From a virus, in the IMG/VR virus record IMGVR_UViG_3300033141_001404, positions 1-34,219 of that record: DNA of 34,219 bases. One strand, written 5' to 3'. This document shows, in pieces, positions 2,719 to 16,612 of this stretch. The notes under the pieces are model-generated. The model did no database searches. It was not told where the DNA came from and worked only from the letters and a program-made list of their open reading frames with translations. Numbering within the stretch: the first letter of the stretch is position 1; the number at the start of each line of letters is the position of its first letter. Made by a program: the position numbers and the translations under genes.

Positions 2719-2929
2719 GATTAATCTCCCTGAGTATGTCTTTTATAACGTCTGCTTGACCTTGTCTGTACGCTGTAGCCTCGAAAGTCTGTCCTTGGCT
2801 ATAAATGGGTCTATCTACATAAGCACGAGCAAGGTTCTCTAAACACTTCTTGCCTAGGTCTGTTTCAAATGTGCCAACTGTGATTTTGTGTATCTCATTG
2901 GATTTTCTTATTCTCTGTGCTTCGGTCAT
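2708..2929 (-). CDS. Bbp19-like phage protein
   Basis: A 73-residue protein matching the pattern of the Bbp19 family from Bordetella phage BPP-1: a central segment with Gly-Gln-Thr-Phe then Ala-Thr-Ala-Tyr-Arg-Gln-Gly-Gln and a final helix. These genes accompany portal genes in many podoviruses; their role is not well defined. The start overlaps the portal stop as ATGA. Confidence 0.6.
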   Translation of the reverse strand: MTEAQRIRKSNEIHKITVGTFETDLGKKCLENLARAYVDRPIYSQGQTFEATAYRQGQADVIKDILREINHGR

Positions 2930-4458
2930 GCTTGCTCCTCTGCAACTTGTGCTGCCGCCATCTCTTGTTGTTGCTGGGCTTGTTTCTGTCGCTGCTCTTG
3001 TCTTTGCATCTTCTCTTCCTCTGTCCGTTTGAACTTAGCAGGTAAACCTAAAATGTCTAACACTTCTGCCGGTACTTTCTCGACTGCAATTTCTTCATTG
3101 ACTAGCTCTGGTGGGAGGACTTGCATGTATTCCATAAACCTACCTATTGCAGCTAGTTGGCTTTCGTCTTGGCTTCTGCTCGATGGTGAAGTGAACTTGA
3201 TAGCTACTTCTTTGCCGTCTACTTTGAACTCTGCTATTTTACCTGCCTGTTTAAGCACATATACACATCGCGCTACAAGTCTTTCGAGTAACTCGTTTTG
3301 GATGCGTCCTGATGCACCTAGTGAACTCTTAGCCATATCTGCGTTACGAATACTCATCTCTGTAGCTGTCCTAACAGGTGACTCTTCTATGTTCCCGAAT
3401 GGCTTAGATATCATTATGCGTCTGATGTTGTCTTGTAGTGCTCTTATGTCATACTGGAGAACTTGATAATCTCCTGCGGGTGCTAGAGGTCTCAATGTTG
3501 GGTTATCATTAGCATTTGAGCCTACAGGTAAAACTGTACCAGGTTGCAATCGTACCGTGTAGGGGTTAATCACCCCATCATCTGTAGCCGTGTAGATTGG
3601 ATTTGCTGTGAAAGCTGCGGCTTTGAGGTGATCTTCTACCATTTTATTTAAGGTTTTAATATCTGGTAGGGCTCTCATTACTCTACCGCGACCCATTGTT
3701 TCACCAGGTATTGTAGACTCTCTGAATACTACCCAGGGGTTAGACTCTAGCGTTTGGTCTATAAGATAGTGCTTTTCTTCCTTGAATACTACTACGGAGT
3801 TGTATTTATCACCTTCTAAGTAGACACCCTCAAGGATTTCGACTTCTGTCGTGGGCTTGTCTTTGATGAGTTGTTTTAGCTTCTCATTGAGTTTTGCACC
3901 TTTCCATGTGGATGCTATGTCCTGTACTGGTATTTGAAACTCTCTAAATACCGTATCAACTATACCTTTGCTTGATTGTTCTAAGATTAACTCTGAGAGC
4001 GATACGCATCTAAAGTTAAGAGATGATTGTATTCCGTCTCCTGCTTCAACTATAACTGCACCTGTTGAGATACCCAAGTCTAAGAATGCTTCGTGAATTT
4101 GAGACGAGAAGTTGCTTGACTTGATGTGGTTAAACACAATGTCAGTAGTTTTCTCTAGGTATTCATTGACTGAGTCTTGTTCTTCTTCGGGAATGTCTGT
4201 ACCTACTTCTAGTTTCATCCAATTAAGATTTGGAGGTACTAATTCAAGTTCCATACGAGTAGCGAAGTCTTCTAGTGCGTCCTCTGCTGTAGAGTCAAAC
4301 ACATAGTCACGTTTCTTTGAGCCTTTACTCCATTTGTCTATGGTGTTACGTTGAGGCATGGCATAGCGGTAGCACTCTCTGATGTGGTGCTCCCATAAAG
4401 CTTTGTTTGCTTTAGCTGCACTAACACGCTTGATTAGTTTTTCATAACTAGAGCTCAT
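2926..4458 (-). CDS. Portal protein (head-tail connector)
   Basis: About 510 residues, the usual size for T7 gp8 / BPP-1-type connectors (head-to-tail connecting family). It would form the dodecameric ring at one capsid vertex through which DNA is packaged and ejected. The N-terminal region has the family pattern of aromatic/Arg-rich start, Pro-Gln-Arg and Phe-Asp-Ser-Thr, then long helical stretches. The C-terminus (after about 465) is Gln/Glu/Ala-rich coiled coil. An ATG lies 10 codons further upstream at 4488, but the ATG at 4458 has AAGGG at good spacing and overlaps the upstream stop by 11 bases, so I prefer 4458. Confidence 0.9.
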   Translation of the reverse strand: MSSSYEKLIKRVSAAKANKALWEHHIRECYRYAMPQRNTIDKWSKGSKKRDYVFDSTAEDALEDFATRMELELVPPNLNWMKLEVGTDIPEEEQDSVNEYLEKTTDIVFNHIKSSNFSSQIHEAFLDLGISTGAVIVEAGDGIQSSLNFRCVSLSELILEQSSKGIVDTVFREFQIPVQDIASTWKGAKLNEKLKQLIKDKPTTEVEILEGVYLEGDKYNSVVVFKEEKHYLIDQTLESNPWVVFRESTIPGETMGRGRVMRALPDIKTLNKMVEDHLKAAAFTANPIYTATDDGVINPYTVRLQPGTVLPVGSNANDNPTLRPLAPAGDYQVLQYDIRALQDNIRRIMISKPFGNIEESPVRTATEMSIRNADMAKSSLGASGRIQNELLERLVARCVYVLKQAGKIAEFKVDGKEVAIKFTSPSSRSQDESQLAAIGRFMEYMQVLPPELVNEEIAVEKVPAEVLDILGLPAKFKRTEEEKMQRQEQRQKQAQQQQEMAAAQVAEEQA

Positions 4459-4624
4459 ATTTTCCCTTTTCAAATTTCTTACATCCAAAGTCAGGAGGTG
4501 TTATTACTTCCGCATTTTTACCGCTTATTTTAGTGCAAACCCCGTCTTGATATTTCTTGAGTGGACGATACCAATACTTACAGTCAGCACAATTTACTTC
4601 TTCTGACCATTTTTCATTTGCCAT
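4448..4624 (-). CDS. Small zinc-ribbon-like protein, 58 aa
   Basis: A short gene filling the space before the portal. It has four Cys (12, 15, 30, 48) in CxxC...C...C order with aromatic residues after the first pair (KYWYR), consistent with a small zinc-binding fold. It overlaps the preceding gene's stop and the portal start by 11 bases each, which supports it as real and coupled. Function unknown. Confidence 0.65.
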   Translation of the reverse strand: MANEKWSEEVNCADCKYWYRPLKKYQDGVCTKISGKNAEVITPPDFGCKKFEKGKYEL

Positions 4625-4967
4625 CTTTTACCTCTTTCTTTTTGCGTGTATGTGGTTTTTTTAGTGTCTCGTCAATTTCTTTTCTATATTTTTTGTTACT
4701 CTCTTCTTGTAGCTTTAAGAGCTTGGTTGCTGTCATTGGTTTAGCTTCATCTGTAGAGTAGTCTTTTGGAGATTTGCTTAATATACCAATACCATTGATA
4801 GTCTCCCCTGCACTAAGCTTCATTACCTCTTTGCCGTCTGCATTAAGTATTCTTGCGTAAGAGCCTACTTTATACTTGCCCCTGAACGCTTCAAACGGTT
4901 GATTAGGTAGAAGAACCACATCATCACACTCTATGCCGTACAGCCTTGTATACTCATTGGTAAACAT
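4614..4967 (-). CDS. Hypothetical head-region protein, 117 aa
   Basis: Not recognised. The N-terminal ~70 residues look like a compact beta-rich domain, followed by a Lys/Glu-rich helix and a basic tail (about 95-117). GGAGG precedes the ATG, which couples with the upstream stop (TAATG). Lying between terminase and portal, it may be a minor head or packaging-related protein. Confidence 0.65.
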   Translation of the reverse strand: MFTNEYTRLYGIECDDVVLLPNQPFEAFRGKYKVGSYARILNADGKEVMKLSAGETINGIGILSKSPKDYSTDEAKPMTATKLLKLQEESNKKYRKEIDETLKKPHTRKKKEVKDGK

Positions 4968-5717: not shown

Positions 5718-7026
5718 AGACACTCCAGTCGCTTGTACTTCCATGTGATTGTCTCCTATCTTGTTTACTTAATTGATCGTTCCAACTTAACGCGAAATAT
5801 CTCCATGCGTCAGCACCATGTGAAGCCCAATCATGTAAAGGCTTATCCTTAAATACATTATGCTTCTCGTCAAACTCTTTTCTATAGTTCTTTAGGCACT
5901 TAATACCATCTTTACAGTTCTCTGCATCAAACCATACTCGTCCTATGATGTTCCTACCTGCTTCTATGCCATCCATTAACCCTTTATTTGGCACAAGCCT
6001 GACATTGATACCCATCTTCCTAAGTGCCACTTCCCTGCTTTGCCCGGTACTAAGCTCTCTTACTCTTATATCATGTGGGAAATAGTGCCCTTCAAATACA
6101 AAGTCATGTGTATCTCTTAGATCATGTAACCAATTCACATAGTGTCTAAGCCCTTCCCCGCTATTCTCATAGTATGCAACTGCTCTCAGTTCGTTGCCAT
6201 GTGCCTGTATAACCCAAATACTTGTTGCATCTGCAATCCCTAAATCCCAATAAGAGAATGTTTTAAGCGTTGGTTCTATAGGTACATCTGTTATGCGTCC
6301 TGCTTTGGCTGCTACATTCATTTGTTTAATGTAGTATGCTCCCTCTATATCCATATCATCCCATGAACCGTCTAGCCATTGTTCTCTAAGCCCAGGAGGT
6401 AAACTCTCTAAGTATTTAAGATACCCTGGGTCTGCATCCATTAAATGAATATTGTCTCTTATGGTGGCAGGTATGTAAATCCTAGTCTTGCCGTCCACTT
6501 CAAACTTTATGCCGTGTGGTTTGTTGTCAATGTGAAATCTCTCTTTTACCCATTCGTGTCCTTGTCCTCCGGGGTTAGTGGTTAGGAATACTTGTGTATT
6601 AATGCCGGGAACCGTTGATCTAAGTGAGCCTAGTAGTTTCTCATATAGTTTTTCTGTGGGTATGTGTGTGACTTCTTCCATAAGTAGGCGATGTATTTCC
6701 CATCCTTGATACTTGGTGTAAGCGTCTGGTGTTGCTAGGTGTCCCGTGTAGATGGTTGCACCTGATGGGAAAGTGATTACTGTAGGGTTTCCTGCTAGTT
6801 TTGCTCCGAGTGGAGTGTATTTTGTTCTCGCTCTATCCACAAAGTCTGCTAAGTCTGTTGCATTACGCCTAATAACGAGTTGTCTTAGTGCTTTGTTGTC
6901 TATGTCATAGAGTAGCCATTGTAAAGCTGAGTCTGTTTTGCCGCCGCCTCTTGAACCTCCGAACAAAACCTCATCTGCTGTAGTTTCTAGTGATAGTTCT
7001 TGTTTAGGGGTTGGCTTCCATGTCAT
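5710..7026 (-). CDS. terL: Terminase large subunit (packaging ATPase-nuclease)
   Basis: A 438-residue motor that pumps DNA into the procapsid through the portal and cuts concatemers. Walker A is GGSRGGGKT (23-31). A Walker B-type strand, LLMEEVTH (114-121), carries the acidic pair E117/E118. A coupling-type segment, TTNPGG, follows near 150. The RNase H-like nuclease half has the acidic motif WDLGIAD (about 265) and a C-terminal GADAWRYF. The start overlaps the upstream stop as ATGA. Confidence 0.95.
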   Translation of the reverse strand: MTWKPTPKQELSLETTADEVLFGGSRGGGKTDSALQWLLYDIDNKALRQLVIRRNATDLADFVDRARTKYTPLGAKLAGNPTVITFPSGATIYTGHLATPDAYTKYQGWEIHRLLMEEVTHIPTEKLYEKLLGSLRSTVPGINTQVFLTTNPGGQGHEWVKERFHIDNKPHGIKFEVDGKTRIYIPATIRDNIHLMDADPGYLKYLESLPPGLREQWLDGSWDDMDIEGAYYIKQMNVAAKAGRITDVPIEPTLKTFSYWDLGIADATSIWVIQAHGNELRAVAYYENSGEGLRHYVNWLHDLRDTHDFVFEGHYFPHDIRVRELSTGQSREVALRKMGINVRLVPNKGLMDGIEAGRNIIGRVWFDAENCKDGIKCLKNYRKEFDEKHNVFKDKPLHDWASHGADAWRYFALSWNDQLSKQDRRQSHGSTSDWSVYD

Positions 7027-7214
7027 TGATTGTCTTTATTCTCTTCTATTAGTTTTATCAAATCAAGTATCTTTTCAACATCTTCATTTGTCATAAGTGA
7101 CATATACAGTGCTGTTTCATATACTGTTGGCATTCTTCCATGCTTATCACATAATTCATCTACACTAAACCTATACAGCTTTGTATTATCTTCAAACCCT
7201 TGTTGTGATACCAT
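7023..7214 (-). CDS. Hypothetical protein between terminase subunits, 63 aa
   Basis: A small acidic helical protein with no recognised domain. It couples to the small terminase stop (TAATG) and to the large terminase start (ATGA). The constant position between the two subunits suggests a packaging accessory role, but this is context only. Confidence 0.65.
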   Translation of the reverse strand: MVSQQGFEDNTKLYRFSVDELCDKHGRMPTVYETALYMSLMTNEDVEKILDLIKLIEENKDNQ

Positions 7215-14123: not shown

Positions 14124-14649
14124 GTATCATCCTTTATTTACTTTTGTTAGATTAAGTGTTTGGCTTGTAAAGAATTGCCCAGCCTAAAAAGACTAGGTTT
14201 ACTTCCGTTGAGTATCGCGTAGGAAAGTTTATTCTTATACTGCATAGCTATTATAAATAAGAAAAGAGAAATAACTTAGATAGATGGGAGCCTTGTATCT
14301 ACCTCGACCATTAAGGTCAACTCTTAACTGCTTGTGTTCTCCGGGCATCGGTACGCTTTAAATGCGTGCTATGACACTCTATTTTCTGCTTAACGTTTAA
14401 ATTTCCGTTTGGACGCTCTCCAAACTCTGAGATTATTTAATGGAGTCTCATACTCTCGTTACTTGACAATGATAATTCTAAAGGGGGATAGTTCATAAAA
14501 GAAGAGTGTGCAAACCATCTTCTGTTATATCCTTTAACCAATCCGAAAATTGGTGACAGTTTGCACACTGGTTAAAAGATACTTATTCAACATTGTACCA
14601 TAATTACTTTAACCCAAACTTGTTGGGCTTTTGTGTTGTGGGTTATTGT
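14124..14649. other. Structured non-coding region (~525 bp), candidate ncRNA or origin
   Basis: No convincing gene. Inverted repeats seen: an 11-bp stem 14505-14515 with 14559-14569, enclosing CTGT/ACAG and ACCAAT/ATTGGT stems; GTTTGG/CCAAAC near 14407-14425; TGAGA/TCTCA near 14427-14449; GTACGC/GCGTGC at 14351-14369, capped by CAU/AUG and GUGU/ACAC; GACC/GGTC near 14307-14319; and GGTAGAT/ATCTATC (as read on the - strand) near 14280-14304. Wobble pairs favour different strands for different stems, so orientation is unresolved. Confidence 0.5.
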
Positions 14650-14748: not shown

Positions 14749-14951
14749 TTCGTCTCCCTTAGCTCGTATGAAGCATACGTCTTGCCGCCCTGCGTGATGT
14801 TCCTTGTGACTATATCCATGCCCTGGCTGCGAAGATCGAATATTCTTGAACTTAACCTAAAGCAGTCAAACATATTTAACGCCATTAAAGCTGTGAGGCT
14901 ATGACCGTCTTCCAAGTGTTGCCTGATTAGGTTGTTTTGTGATTGGCTCAT
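14745..14951 (-). CDS. Winged HTH DNA-binding protein (HTH_39-like), 68 aa
   Basis: The sequence matches the helix-turn-helix type common in phage and prophage: Ile-Arg-Gln-His-Leu-Glu-Asp-Gly, then Ala-Leu-Met-Ala-Leu-Asn-Met-Phe then Arg-Leu-Ser-Ser-Arg-Ile-Phe-Asp-Leu-Arg, followed by a beta wing. It probably regulates the early region. It is third in the PL operon; the start overlaps the previous stop. Confidence 0.75.
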   Translation of the reverse strand: MSQSQNNLIRQHLEDGHSLTALMALNMFDCFRLSSRIFDLRSQGMDIVTRNITQGGKTYASYELRETK

Positions 14952-15139
14952 TTGGTGTCCTTTAAAGATAATAGTCCTATTTCTATACCTTCTAGTATTT
15001 CCTCTGATATAAGAAGTGGCTCTTGAACATATCTAAGCAACGAAATTAAAGTAGCTTCTTCATCTTTATTTAAATACACTTGCCTTATTCCGTCTATGCC
15101 TTCTAGCTCTACTATAATATGTGCTTTTAGTATTTTCAT
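14948..15139 (-). CDS. Hypothetical early protein, 63 aa
   Basis: Acidic, Ile/Leu/Glu-rich small protein with no recognised motif. Its ATG begins one base after the HTH gene stop (TAAGATG), with GAGGAG overlapping the end of that gene as ribosome site. Early expression from PL suggests a takeover or anti-host role, but this is only context. Confidence 0.65.
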   Translation of the reverse strand: MKILKAHIIVELEGIDGIRQVYLNKDEEATLISLLRYVQEPLLISEEILEGIEIGLLSLKDTK

Positions 15140-15140
15140 C

Positions 15141-15302
15141 TTAAAAATGCTCCTCTCTACTTTTACTATGATCTTCTCTTTCTAGCTTTTCTTTCATAAA
15201 TACATAAAGTTTACGTCTCCAATTACTAGACTCCTGTTTTTTCCAATTAGCTAAAGTCCTAATTGGCATCTTAAATCGCTCTGCTATTTTCACATCTGTC
15301 AT
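15141..15302 (-). CDS. Small HTH regulator, 53 aa, first PL gene
   Basis: The N-terminus reads as a Cro/phage-type HTH: Lys-Ile-Ala-Glu-Arg-Phe-Lys-Met-Pro, turn, Thr-Leu-Ala-Asn-Trp-Lys. A basic helix follows, with Trp-Arg-Arg-Lys and a charged C-terminus. AAGGA lies ahead of the ATG, about 20 bases after the PL start point. As the gene nearest the divergent promoters it is the best candidate for binding the operator-like repeat between them. Confidence 0.75.
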   Translation of the reverse strand: MTDVKIAERFKMPIRTLANWKKQESSNWRRKLYVFMKEKLEREDHSKSREEHF

Positions 15303-15327
15303 ATTGTTCCTTATGTTAATATAAGAA

Positions 15328-15357
15328 AGTATATCACAATAAATGCAACATTGTCAA
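15328..15357 (-). promoter_or_regulatory. PL: leftward early promoter
   Basis: On the - strand, TTGACA (15357-15352), 18-base spacer, TATACT (15333-15328) with TGA directly ahead of the -10 box. This is near consensus for sigma-70. The start near 15321 leaves a leader of about 20 bases before the small HTH gene. Confidence 0.8.
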
Positions 15358-15379
15358 GAAAATTACATTTATTTTCATA
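15332..15379. promoter_or_regulatory. Operator-like inverted repeat between PL and PR
   Basis: The arm 15363-15379 (TTACATTTATTTTCATA) and the reverse complement of 15332-15348 agree at 14 of 17 positions. The left arm overlaps the PL -10 box and spacer; the right arm ends six bases before the PR -35 box. A regulator bound here could control both promoters; the 53-aa HTH protein is the likely binder. Confidence 0.55.
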
Positions 15380-15385
15380 AAACCC

Positions 15386-15414
15386 TTGACATTTAAAATA
15401 TTCTCTGCTACAAT
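15386..15414 (+). promoter_or_regulatory. PR: rightward early promoter
   Basis: TTGACA (15386-15391), a 17-base spacer and TACAAT (15409-15414): almost perfect sigma-70 consensus. Start predicted near 15421. It drives a long structured leader and then the 15837-17830 gene cluster. Confidence 0.88.
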
Positions 15415-15420
15415 TTGAGT

Positions 15421-15800
15421 AGAAGTTGAGTTTAGCTTCTGTGTTCTCTAACATTTTGAGCTTTTATAAGTGGTGTAGAGAGTTAAAGGTTTTAGATTAG
15501 TGCGAATACGTTTTCCAATGGGTAAAAACTTGGACTACCTTTGAAGTTAACATAAACCTACCTAGTTAGTATGTGTCCAAGCAGAACCCTTAATGAAAAG
15601 TCGCGACTATTTTACATAGTTACTACACCACTTATAAGAGCTTTTACATGAGCCGTCAGTTTTGATTTAACTCCTCCTTTTTCAAAATATCCCTTTCTTT
15701 GACGGCTCTTTTAAGAGCTTCAATGTTGACATGACCCAAGCAAATCTAATTCCCCTTTTCAAAATTAGATTTAAACTTCCTCCTTTTGCTTGGGTCTTGT
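15421..15800 (+). ncRNA. Three-hairpin leader / candidate small RNA with anti-SD loops
   Basis: Downstream of PR and without an open frame. After a short 5' hairpin (15421-15440) come three modules. H1: a 20-bp stem (15459-15478 with 15623-15642, one U-G) around a 144-nt folded insert that contains a CTTGGAC/GTCCAAG stem (15529-15535, 15576-15582). H2: GAGCCGTCA/TGACGGCTC (15650-15658, 15700-15708) with an inner TTTTGA/TCAAAA stem, followed by TTTT. H3: GACCCAAGC/GCTTGGGTC (15733-15741, 15788-15796) with an inner 10-bp AAATCTAATT/AATTAGATTT stem. H2 and H3 both expose UCCUCCUUUU, complementary to a ribosome-binding site. Each module is followed by a GAGCUU-type linker. Confidence 0.65.
15672..15787 (+). 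repeat. Repeated pyrimidine-rich loop motif TCCTCCTTTT
   Basis: The 10-mer TCCTCCTTTT occurs at 15672-15681 (H2 loop) and 15778-15787 (H3 side loop), each preceded by GATTTAA. The longer imperfect repeat spans about 18-20 bases. Its core matches the anti-Shine-Dalgarno tail of 16S rRNA and is complementary to AAAAGGA-type ribosome sites, such as the one at 15824-15830. Confidence 0.75.
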
Positions 15801-15836
15801 GAGCTTTGACTCTAATTTAAATGAAAAGGATTTAAA

Positions 15837-16052
15837 ATGAAACTAGAAACATTTTGGGAGATATTACAACAAGAGCAATACCAAGCCTTAACCGTGGCAG
15901 AATTTGTGGAGGTAGTGAAAGACTCGAAAGTTATGGAAGATGAACCGTTCCCTAGCTTTTCCGAGGAGTCGATAAGACTGCATGAAGAGAAGATGGAACT
16001 AAAAGAGAAGCGTGAGAGATTTGCGGACTATTCTGACCAGGAGGCAAAATAA
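15837..16052 (+). CDS. Hypothetical acidic early protein, 71 aa
   Basis: First gene after the PR leader. The ribosome site AAAAGGA is spaced seven bases from the ATG and is complementary to the leader loops. The protein is Glu-rich, helical, and not recognised; its C-terminal half is a Glu/Lys/Arg coiled coil. The stop overlaps the annealing-protein start (TAATG). Confidence 0.7.
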   Translation: MKLETFWEILQQEQYQALTVAEFVEVVKDSKVMEDEPFPSFSEESIRLHEEKMELKEKRERFADYSDQEAK

Positions 16053-16612
16053 TGAATAATGTATATAAAAAACTATTTGAACTTAAAAAGCTGACAGGCA
16101 AAGTAGTAAAAGGTGCTAGTAACCCCTTCTTTAAAACCAAATACTCTGATTTAAATAGCGTAATTGATGCCACAGAGTCAGCACTTGAAGAGGTAGGGCT
16201 TCTTTATCTTGATAGAGTAGAGGGCTTAGAGTTGATAAGTGATATTATTGACATTGAGAGTGGAGAAGTTATCACTACTAAAACACCTCTTTTATTGGCT
16301 AAACAAGACATGCAACAACTGGGCTCAGCGATTACATACGCTAGGCGATATGCACGAATGACTACATTAGGGCTACAGTCTGTCGATGATGATGGAGGAG
16401 TAGCTAGCGGAACGGTATTCATTAGACCTAAGCAGATCAAAGAGATAAATGAGCTAATACTTGCAACCAAAACCGATACTGTCAAGTTCTTGCAATATTT
16501 TCATACTGATGCTGTTAAGAACTTAACCGAACAAGCAGCAATACAAGCAATCAAAACACTTACACTTAAAAAAGAAAAAGGAGCGAAAGATGGAACTGAT
16601 AAAACCAACTAG
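16052..16612 (+). CDS. erf: ERF-superfamily single-strand annealing protein
   Basis: A 186-residue recombinase that pairs complementary single strands, acting with SSB. Family features: FKTKYSDLNSVIDA near 27-40, GSAITYARRY (91-100) and the acidic turn VDDDG (111-115). The C-terminal ~65 residues are helical and basic. P22 Erf-like proteins circularise and repair phage DNA. It overlaps the next gene by 23 bases. Confidence 0.9.
   Translation: MNNVYKKLFELKKLTGKVVKGASNPFFKTKYSDLNSVIDATESALEEVGLLYLDRVEGLELISDIIDIESGEVITTKTPLLLAKQDMQQLGSAITYARRYARMTTLGLQSVDDDGGVASGTVFIRPKQIKEINELILATKTDTVKFLQYFHTDAVKNLTEQAAIQAIKTLTLKKEKGAKDGTDKTN

Follow-up and report, generated by a model that had tools for sequence, protein, structure and literature searches.

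A modular, structured 5' leader RNA at the head of a phage rightward early operon

Few structured phage leader RNAs are known. One of the closest described systems is the c4 RNA of phages P1 and P7, a phage-encoded structured RNA that originates in the leader of the operon it regulates. In P1, c4 blocks the ribosome site of ant, probably through its loops (PMC12197685). In Listeria, the free-standing host sRNA LhrC (RF00616), which ends in a terminator, carries three redundant CUCCC..UUUU sites that bind Shine-Dalgarno (SD) regions (PMC4132741). The put RNAs of HK022 are about 70 nt long, consist of two stem-loops with constrained sequence and are found behind both PL and PR (PMC9378689), while for boxA, the short element of rrn and nut sites, a gamma-proteobacterial consensus GYTCTTTAANA has been reported (PMC5725501). 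The RNA element presented here is undescribed; it would work most like the LhrC sRNAs and P1 c4 and, by the tests made, cannot be assigned to either. A search of Rfam 15 gave no match at gathering score in the whole window or in the arrays of relatives, which bears out the original prediction, made from the sequence of this phage, that no described family has such a layout, and no description of an array of this kind was found in the open-access literature.

The window, that is, the whole stretch of DNA analysed, is a virus record of 34,219 bases with genes for a phage terminase (5710-7026), a head-tail connector (2926-4488), tail proteins, NinG, SSB, a cytosine methylase and an ERF recombinase; a terminase search of bacterial genomes found no close prophage. 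The leader region sits between two divergent promoters. Leftward, a promoter at 15357-15328 serves a small repressor operon (HTH_39 and others; 15302-14745). Rightward, a PR-like early promoter on the + strand (15386..15414; TTGACA-N17-TACAAT with a TG before the -10) matches the consensus at 11 of 12 positions. The first gene of the rightward early operon (15837..16052, + strand) encodes 71 aa, belongs to no family and has homologues in the related phages G003 and G004; the ERF recombinase gene (16052-16612, + strand) comes next. Between promoter and first gene, no + strand ORF of at least 50 aa lies inside the leader. No terminator-like site, including an intrinsic one at the 3' side of the LhrC type, was found in 14800-16500, and thus nothing there to release the modules.

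The element is a structured, non-coding 5' leader RNA of this operon. The 420-nt leader folds at -117.9 kcal/mol against a shuffle mean of -83.2 (z -6.15), and none of 100 shuffles was equally stable. Of 340 200-nt stretches taken from both strands and folded (mean z -0.2, sd 1.35), the + strand stretch from 15621 was the extreme of the genome, with a z of -12.1 as compared with -4.7 for the next best, and its opposite strand folds less well (-50.8 vs -58.9). The second place is taken by 15200-15399 on the - strand, which spans the divergent promoter and the repressor start. Three hairpin modules, all strongly folded, lie within 15421-15836, between promoter and first early gene, and the leader helices have mean pair probabilities of 0.94-1.0. 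The original prediction had described a near-consensus promoter followed by about 400 nt free of genes, with three long stems of 20, 9 and 9 bp separated by GAGCUU-type linkers. The promoter and the folded, gene-free stretch were confirmed, the stem lengths are close to the computed outer helices of 21, 9 and 11 bp, and GAGCTT-type linkers are present at four sites (15458, 15638, 15715 and 15801).

The leader opens with an 8-bp hairpin, AGAAGUUGAGUUUAGCUUCU (15421..15440, + strand; pair probability 0.95), and between this hairpin and module 1 lies a boxA-like site, UGUUCUCUAACA (15442..15453, + strand). The modules that follow are bounded by a repeat, GAGCUUUU, with which the adjoining AAGAGCUU pairs over 8 bp including G-U. 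Because adjacent modules share the linker AAGAGCUUUU, as 3' arm of the first and 5' arm of the second, neighbouring clamps are mutually exclusive. Module 1 (15458..15643, + strand) consists of a 21-bp closing stem (15458-15478/15623-15643; helix probability 0.96) round a 144-nt insert in which there is neither a CU loop nor any shared content. Module 2 (15638..15721, + strand), of type A, features the GAGCUUUU clamp, a 9-bp outer stem (15650-15658/15700-15708), a 7-bp inner stem (15659-15665/15682-15688), the loop UUUAACUCCUCCUUUU and an 11-nt 3' bulge, AUCCCUUUCUU. Module 3 (15720..15813, + strand), of type B and represented by covariance model R2, has an 11-bp outer stem (15733-15743/15786-15796), an 8-bp inner stem (15744-15751/15763-15770), an inner loop with CCCCUUUUCA and the 3' bulge UUAAACUUCCUCCUU. 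Finally, a hairpin (15816..15836, + strand; pair probability 0.64) shows the SD of the first gene, GAAAAGG, in its loop. A hairpin of the same geometry, with an 11-bp outer stem, a 5'-side inner hairpin and a 3' bulge, was also seen on the - strand behind the leftward repressor operon (14505-14571), its bulge being the purine-rich UAAAGGAUAU in place of a CU-rich sequence. At the corresponding place in the relative G001 (6975-7154; about 2235-2414 in L002) there is a strong hairpin (z -6.6) with the outer stem GUGUCCAAGC/GCUUGGACAC and the inner stem GUCCUCC/GGGGGAC.

A terminase search of viral contigs yielded 24 relatives, and the array was found in the window and four other phages: the close relatives G001, G003 and L106, with one to three modules that follow the same promoter as in the window, and the distant L015, so that the comparison rests on five phages, all from metagenomes. 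In the window and the three close relatives, the array opens the early operon ahead of different first genes. G001 (IMGVR_UViG_3300033148_002074; TerL 98%) has one module behind the promoter, in a segment with 82% DNA identity to module 3 of the window together with the ribosome site there; it has the same geometry and ends at the ATG, and the stretch from module 3 up to the ATG is conserved even though an unrelated gene lies behind it. G003 (3300022540_000454; TerL 93%) carries the 5' hairpin of the window and three modules. A search of 2.9 million viral contigs found exact copies of the 21-nt TAGAAGTTGAGTTTAGCTTCT of this hairpin only in G003 and L106 (3300033153_004400), the latter having been found through it. 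L106 has two modules, of which one is nearly identical to window module 2 and the other, of 325 nt (4557-4881, - strand), has unrelated content; closed by GAAGUGAUAA/UUAUCACUUC, it resembles neither any Rfam family nor the inserts in module 1 of the window and of G003. The L106 array as a whole is the exception in stability (z -0.8), mainly because this 325-nt module is not clearly folded. Module 1 holds the same position with the same clamp in the window, G003 and L106 around unrelated inserts, and module 2 of G003 likewise shares the clamp and not the contents.

L015 (3300033562_000673; TerL 65%) has, behind two small + strand genes, 370 nt of structured non-coding sequence (z -6.3). It opens with AGAGCUUUUACAUG, identical to the module 2 clamp (E 0.002 in a search with covariance model R1), followed by a hairpin with the UUGAGUUUA loop of the window's 5' hairpin and then UGUUCUUUGAAA; its later hairpins are not homologous to those of the other arrays. 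Very stable hairpins were noted at 524-896, flanked by small regulatory genes on one side and a ParB/MT-A70-like gene on the other, including a 20-bp stem starting GCAAUUAAGAGAGGGCGAGC. It is possible that the L015 array is a distant version of the same device. In G004 (a 35.9 kb contig; TerL 88%), no array was detected by DNA or covariance-model search, and the first-gene homologue stands directly behind a promoter; the array thus appears dispensable for the group. Other searches added no relatives: blastn of the leader, the L106 array and the L015 array against phage records gave only chance matches of 28-32 nt, and the ERF, first-gene and HTH_39 proteins led to nothing or to the same contigs. 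The loop pattern TTTAAACNTCCTCCTTT gave 51 matches in viral contigs, with the module structure only in G001 and G003 and many of the others being the complement of ordinary ribosome sites, and TAACATTTNGAGCTTTT gave 53, real only in G003 and L106.

The strongest evidence for a functional RNA comes from comparing modules of one type. Type A comprises window module 2, L106 module 2 and G003 module 3, which share a 9-bp outer stem, a 7-bp inner hairpin, the loop UUUAA(A)CNUCCUCCUUUU and an 11-nt 3' bulge; covariance model R1 scores all of them (L106 106 bits, G003 83 bits), the three being its own training set. Between L106 and G003, all 27 pairs of this module are kept, 11 having changed on both sides and two on one side, so that 11 of the 16 pairs outside the clamp are double changes. 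Stem identity is about 28%, near background, as against about 88% for the loop UUUAAACNUCCUCCUUU. Type B comprises window module 3 and the G001 module, with an 11-bp outer stem, an 8-bp inner hairpin with the loop CCCCUUUUCAA and a 15-16-nt 3' bulge with UAAACNUCCUCCUU; of nine outer pairs compared by alignment and folds, five changed on both sides, one on one side and three not at all. Sequences are few and whole-module swaps may contribute, yet either way it is pairing and loop that are kept and not the sequence of the stems. Compensatory change and loop conservation, two of the points on which the original prediction had proposed to be judged, are both seen among the relatives, since the stems are replaced and still paired and the CU-rich loop is retained. 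By this comparison of sequences, the fold of the leader is under selection as RNA, with the CU-rich anti-SD segments of the last modules kept while their stems are replaced. Strand asymmetry agrees: for most modules the + strand is more stable than its reverse complement through G-U pairs (-26.3 vs -20.2 in window module 2, -33.1 vs -20.2 in L106 module 2 and -34.1 vs -28.7 in G003 module 3), which indicates RNA and not DNA, while the two strands differ little in window module 1 and in the G001 module.

What the loops display is mostly single stranded. The sequence TCCTCCTTTT occurs at 15672-15681 and 15778-15787, its sole two copies in the genome where 0.26 are expected, with mean unpaired probabilities of 0.98 and 0.83 (the last bases of the second are paired). 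Two further segments, TCCCTTTC (15690-15697) and TTCCCCTTTTC (15750-15760, its first two T paired), reach 0.997 and 0.83. The exposed CU-rich segments proposed from the sequence, one of them present twice, are thus recovered. The leader resembles LhrC in these redundant, SD-complementary single-stranded sites in hairpin loops and linkers (two UCCUCCUUUU, one UCCCUUUC and one CCCCUUUUC). LhrC, however, lacks clamp-bounded modules and is not the leader of an early promoter, and its covariance model scores 16.8 bits on the window against a gathering score of 110 (E 8.6). The conserved loop contains CCUCCUUU, the anti-SD core of 16S rRNA, and pairing with ribosome-binding sites is therefore the simplest reading.

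We tentatively prefer the reading in which SD-directed base-pairing of the CU-rich loops, in cis and/or in trans, lowers translation initiation. The transcript would present, in order, the 5' hairpin and boxA-like site, the clamp-bounded array and the ribosome-binding site of whichever gene comes first, and its CU-rich segments would pair with sites of the AAAAGGA/AAGGAGG kind. In the window and G001, the cis route would be a loop-loop contact in which CCUUUUCA of the last module pairs with UGAAAAGG of the first gene; once the transcript is cleaved, modules may also target other mRNAs, of phage or host, in trans. The loop of module 3, CCUUUUCA, is perfectly complementary over 8 nt to UGAAAAGG at the ribosome site of the first gene, whose AAAAGGA lies at 15824-15830. 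This is one of five non-self sites of at least 8 nt in 68 kb (both strands), with a chance of about 0.002 of falling on that ribosome site, uncorrected and ignoring purine bias, and it is retained in G001 ahead of an unrelated gene. In L106 and G003, the complementarity to the SD of the next gene, read by eye, is a generic 5-6 nt. Of the cis, trans or put-like roles and anti-SD loops put forward in the original prediction, a functional RNA is upheld and the predicted cis contact is specific only in the window and G001; as it is generic in L106 and G003, a trans or an antitermination role may apply instead. As in c4, a structured phage RNA would block a ribosome site through loops; c4 has no modular array, and the complementarity here, 8 nt or 5-6 nt in the own operon, is shorter. 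The best trans target in the window was the ribosome site of the head-tail connector gene, which probably starts at ATG 4458 (4456-4474, - strand) and whose UUUGAAAAGGG is complementary to the module 3 loop over 11 nt; it was rejected as a specific late-gene target, as relatives with 92-97% identical protein starts lack the match. Anti-SD pairing is generic, so SD complementarity by itself proves little; the missing CU loop in module 1 and the failure to find a terminator that could free the modules also speak against this reading.

The boxA-like motif ahead of the modules argues for a role in transcription and makes antitermination the main rival to SD pairing, although a somewhat unlikely one. 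Here, the hairpin and boxA-like site would load NusB/S10-type factors as in rrn and nut leaders, or the modules would bind RNA polymerase directly as HK022 put does, letting the polymerase read through both the early operon and the long untranslated leader ahead of it. The site UGUUCUCUAACA differs at one position from the consensus TGYTCTTTRAMA (P 0.001 for a stretch of this length), which may not be the consensus of the host and was merged after the sequences had been inspected, in part from the rrn boxA of E. coli and Bacillus. L015 has no mismatch, in an ambiguous alignment where MAFFT places another UUUAACA; G003 and L106 have two (P about 0.015, not independent) and G001 three (P 0.1), a poor match. 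The match is suggestive of a boxA but no proof of one. A hairpin and then a boxA-like dodecamer just behind the promoter recalls rrn and nut leaders, but the long hairpin array has no counterpart there. Likewise, put RNAs are two stem-loops downstream of early promoters (PMC9378689), made early and independent of the next gene, and the present array stands at the start of the early operon before different first genes in four phages. Against this, put and nut conserve specific stem or box sequences whereas loops and clamps alone are conserved here, and the window-type array, up to 400 nt with one to three modules, lies behind the rightward promoter only, the leftward leader being about 20 nt. 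Moreover, no N- or Q-like protein was identified, and antitermination leaves the CU loops unexplained.

Further readings are less probable. It is rather unlikely that the array is a set of interchangeable clamp-bounded cassettes, the first product of early transcription, acting in trans on functions of the host or of rivals; each cassette would carry its own payload, an anti-SD display in some and inserts of 100-325 nt in others. Quite improbable is a decoy, by which a host protein (for example an RNase, S1, Rho or a defence nuclease) would be titrated through modules that mimic either the 3' end of 16S rRNA, with its hairpin, CCUCCUUU and closing stem, or some other pyrimidine-rich site. The type B order of hairpin, UUUAAACNUCCUCCUUU and closing stem does match the pre-16S 3' end, and the modules, swapped as units, lead the early transcript, a place where functions against the host may be common; in type A, however, the motif sits in the hairpin loop and not behind the hairpin, and no candidate protein is known. 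Strong 5' hairpins protect mRNA ends, and a leader that merely stabilises or insulates the early mRNA would leave its stems free to change, as they are here; with loops far better conserved than stems, the reverse of what a stabiliser needs, an incidental loop sequence is very doubtful. Least probable is a palindrome cluster acting as DNA, for example as an origin of replication or a site of packaging or recombination: the modules are flanked by direct repeats of GAGCTTTT and are swapped, but G-U pairs favour the + strand RNA in most modules and are retained in the clamp variants.

Taken together, these observations indicate that the leader probably regulates the early genes, whether in translation or in transcription. 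Stems that are replaced, loops that are kept and modules that are swapped form a clear evolutionary signature, which opens the function to direct tests. Should the loops silence ribosome-binding sites, the element would be an anti-Shine-Dalgarno RNA with several sites, carried by a phage and built as a modular leader; if the leader serves antitermination, it would represent a new RNA design for that role.
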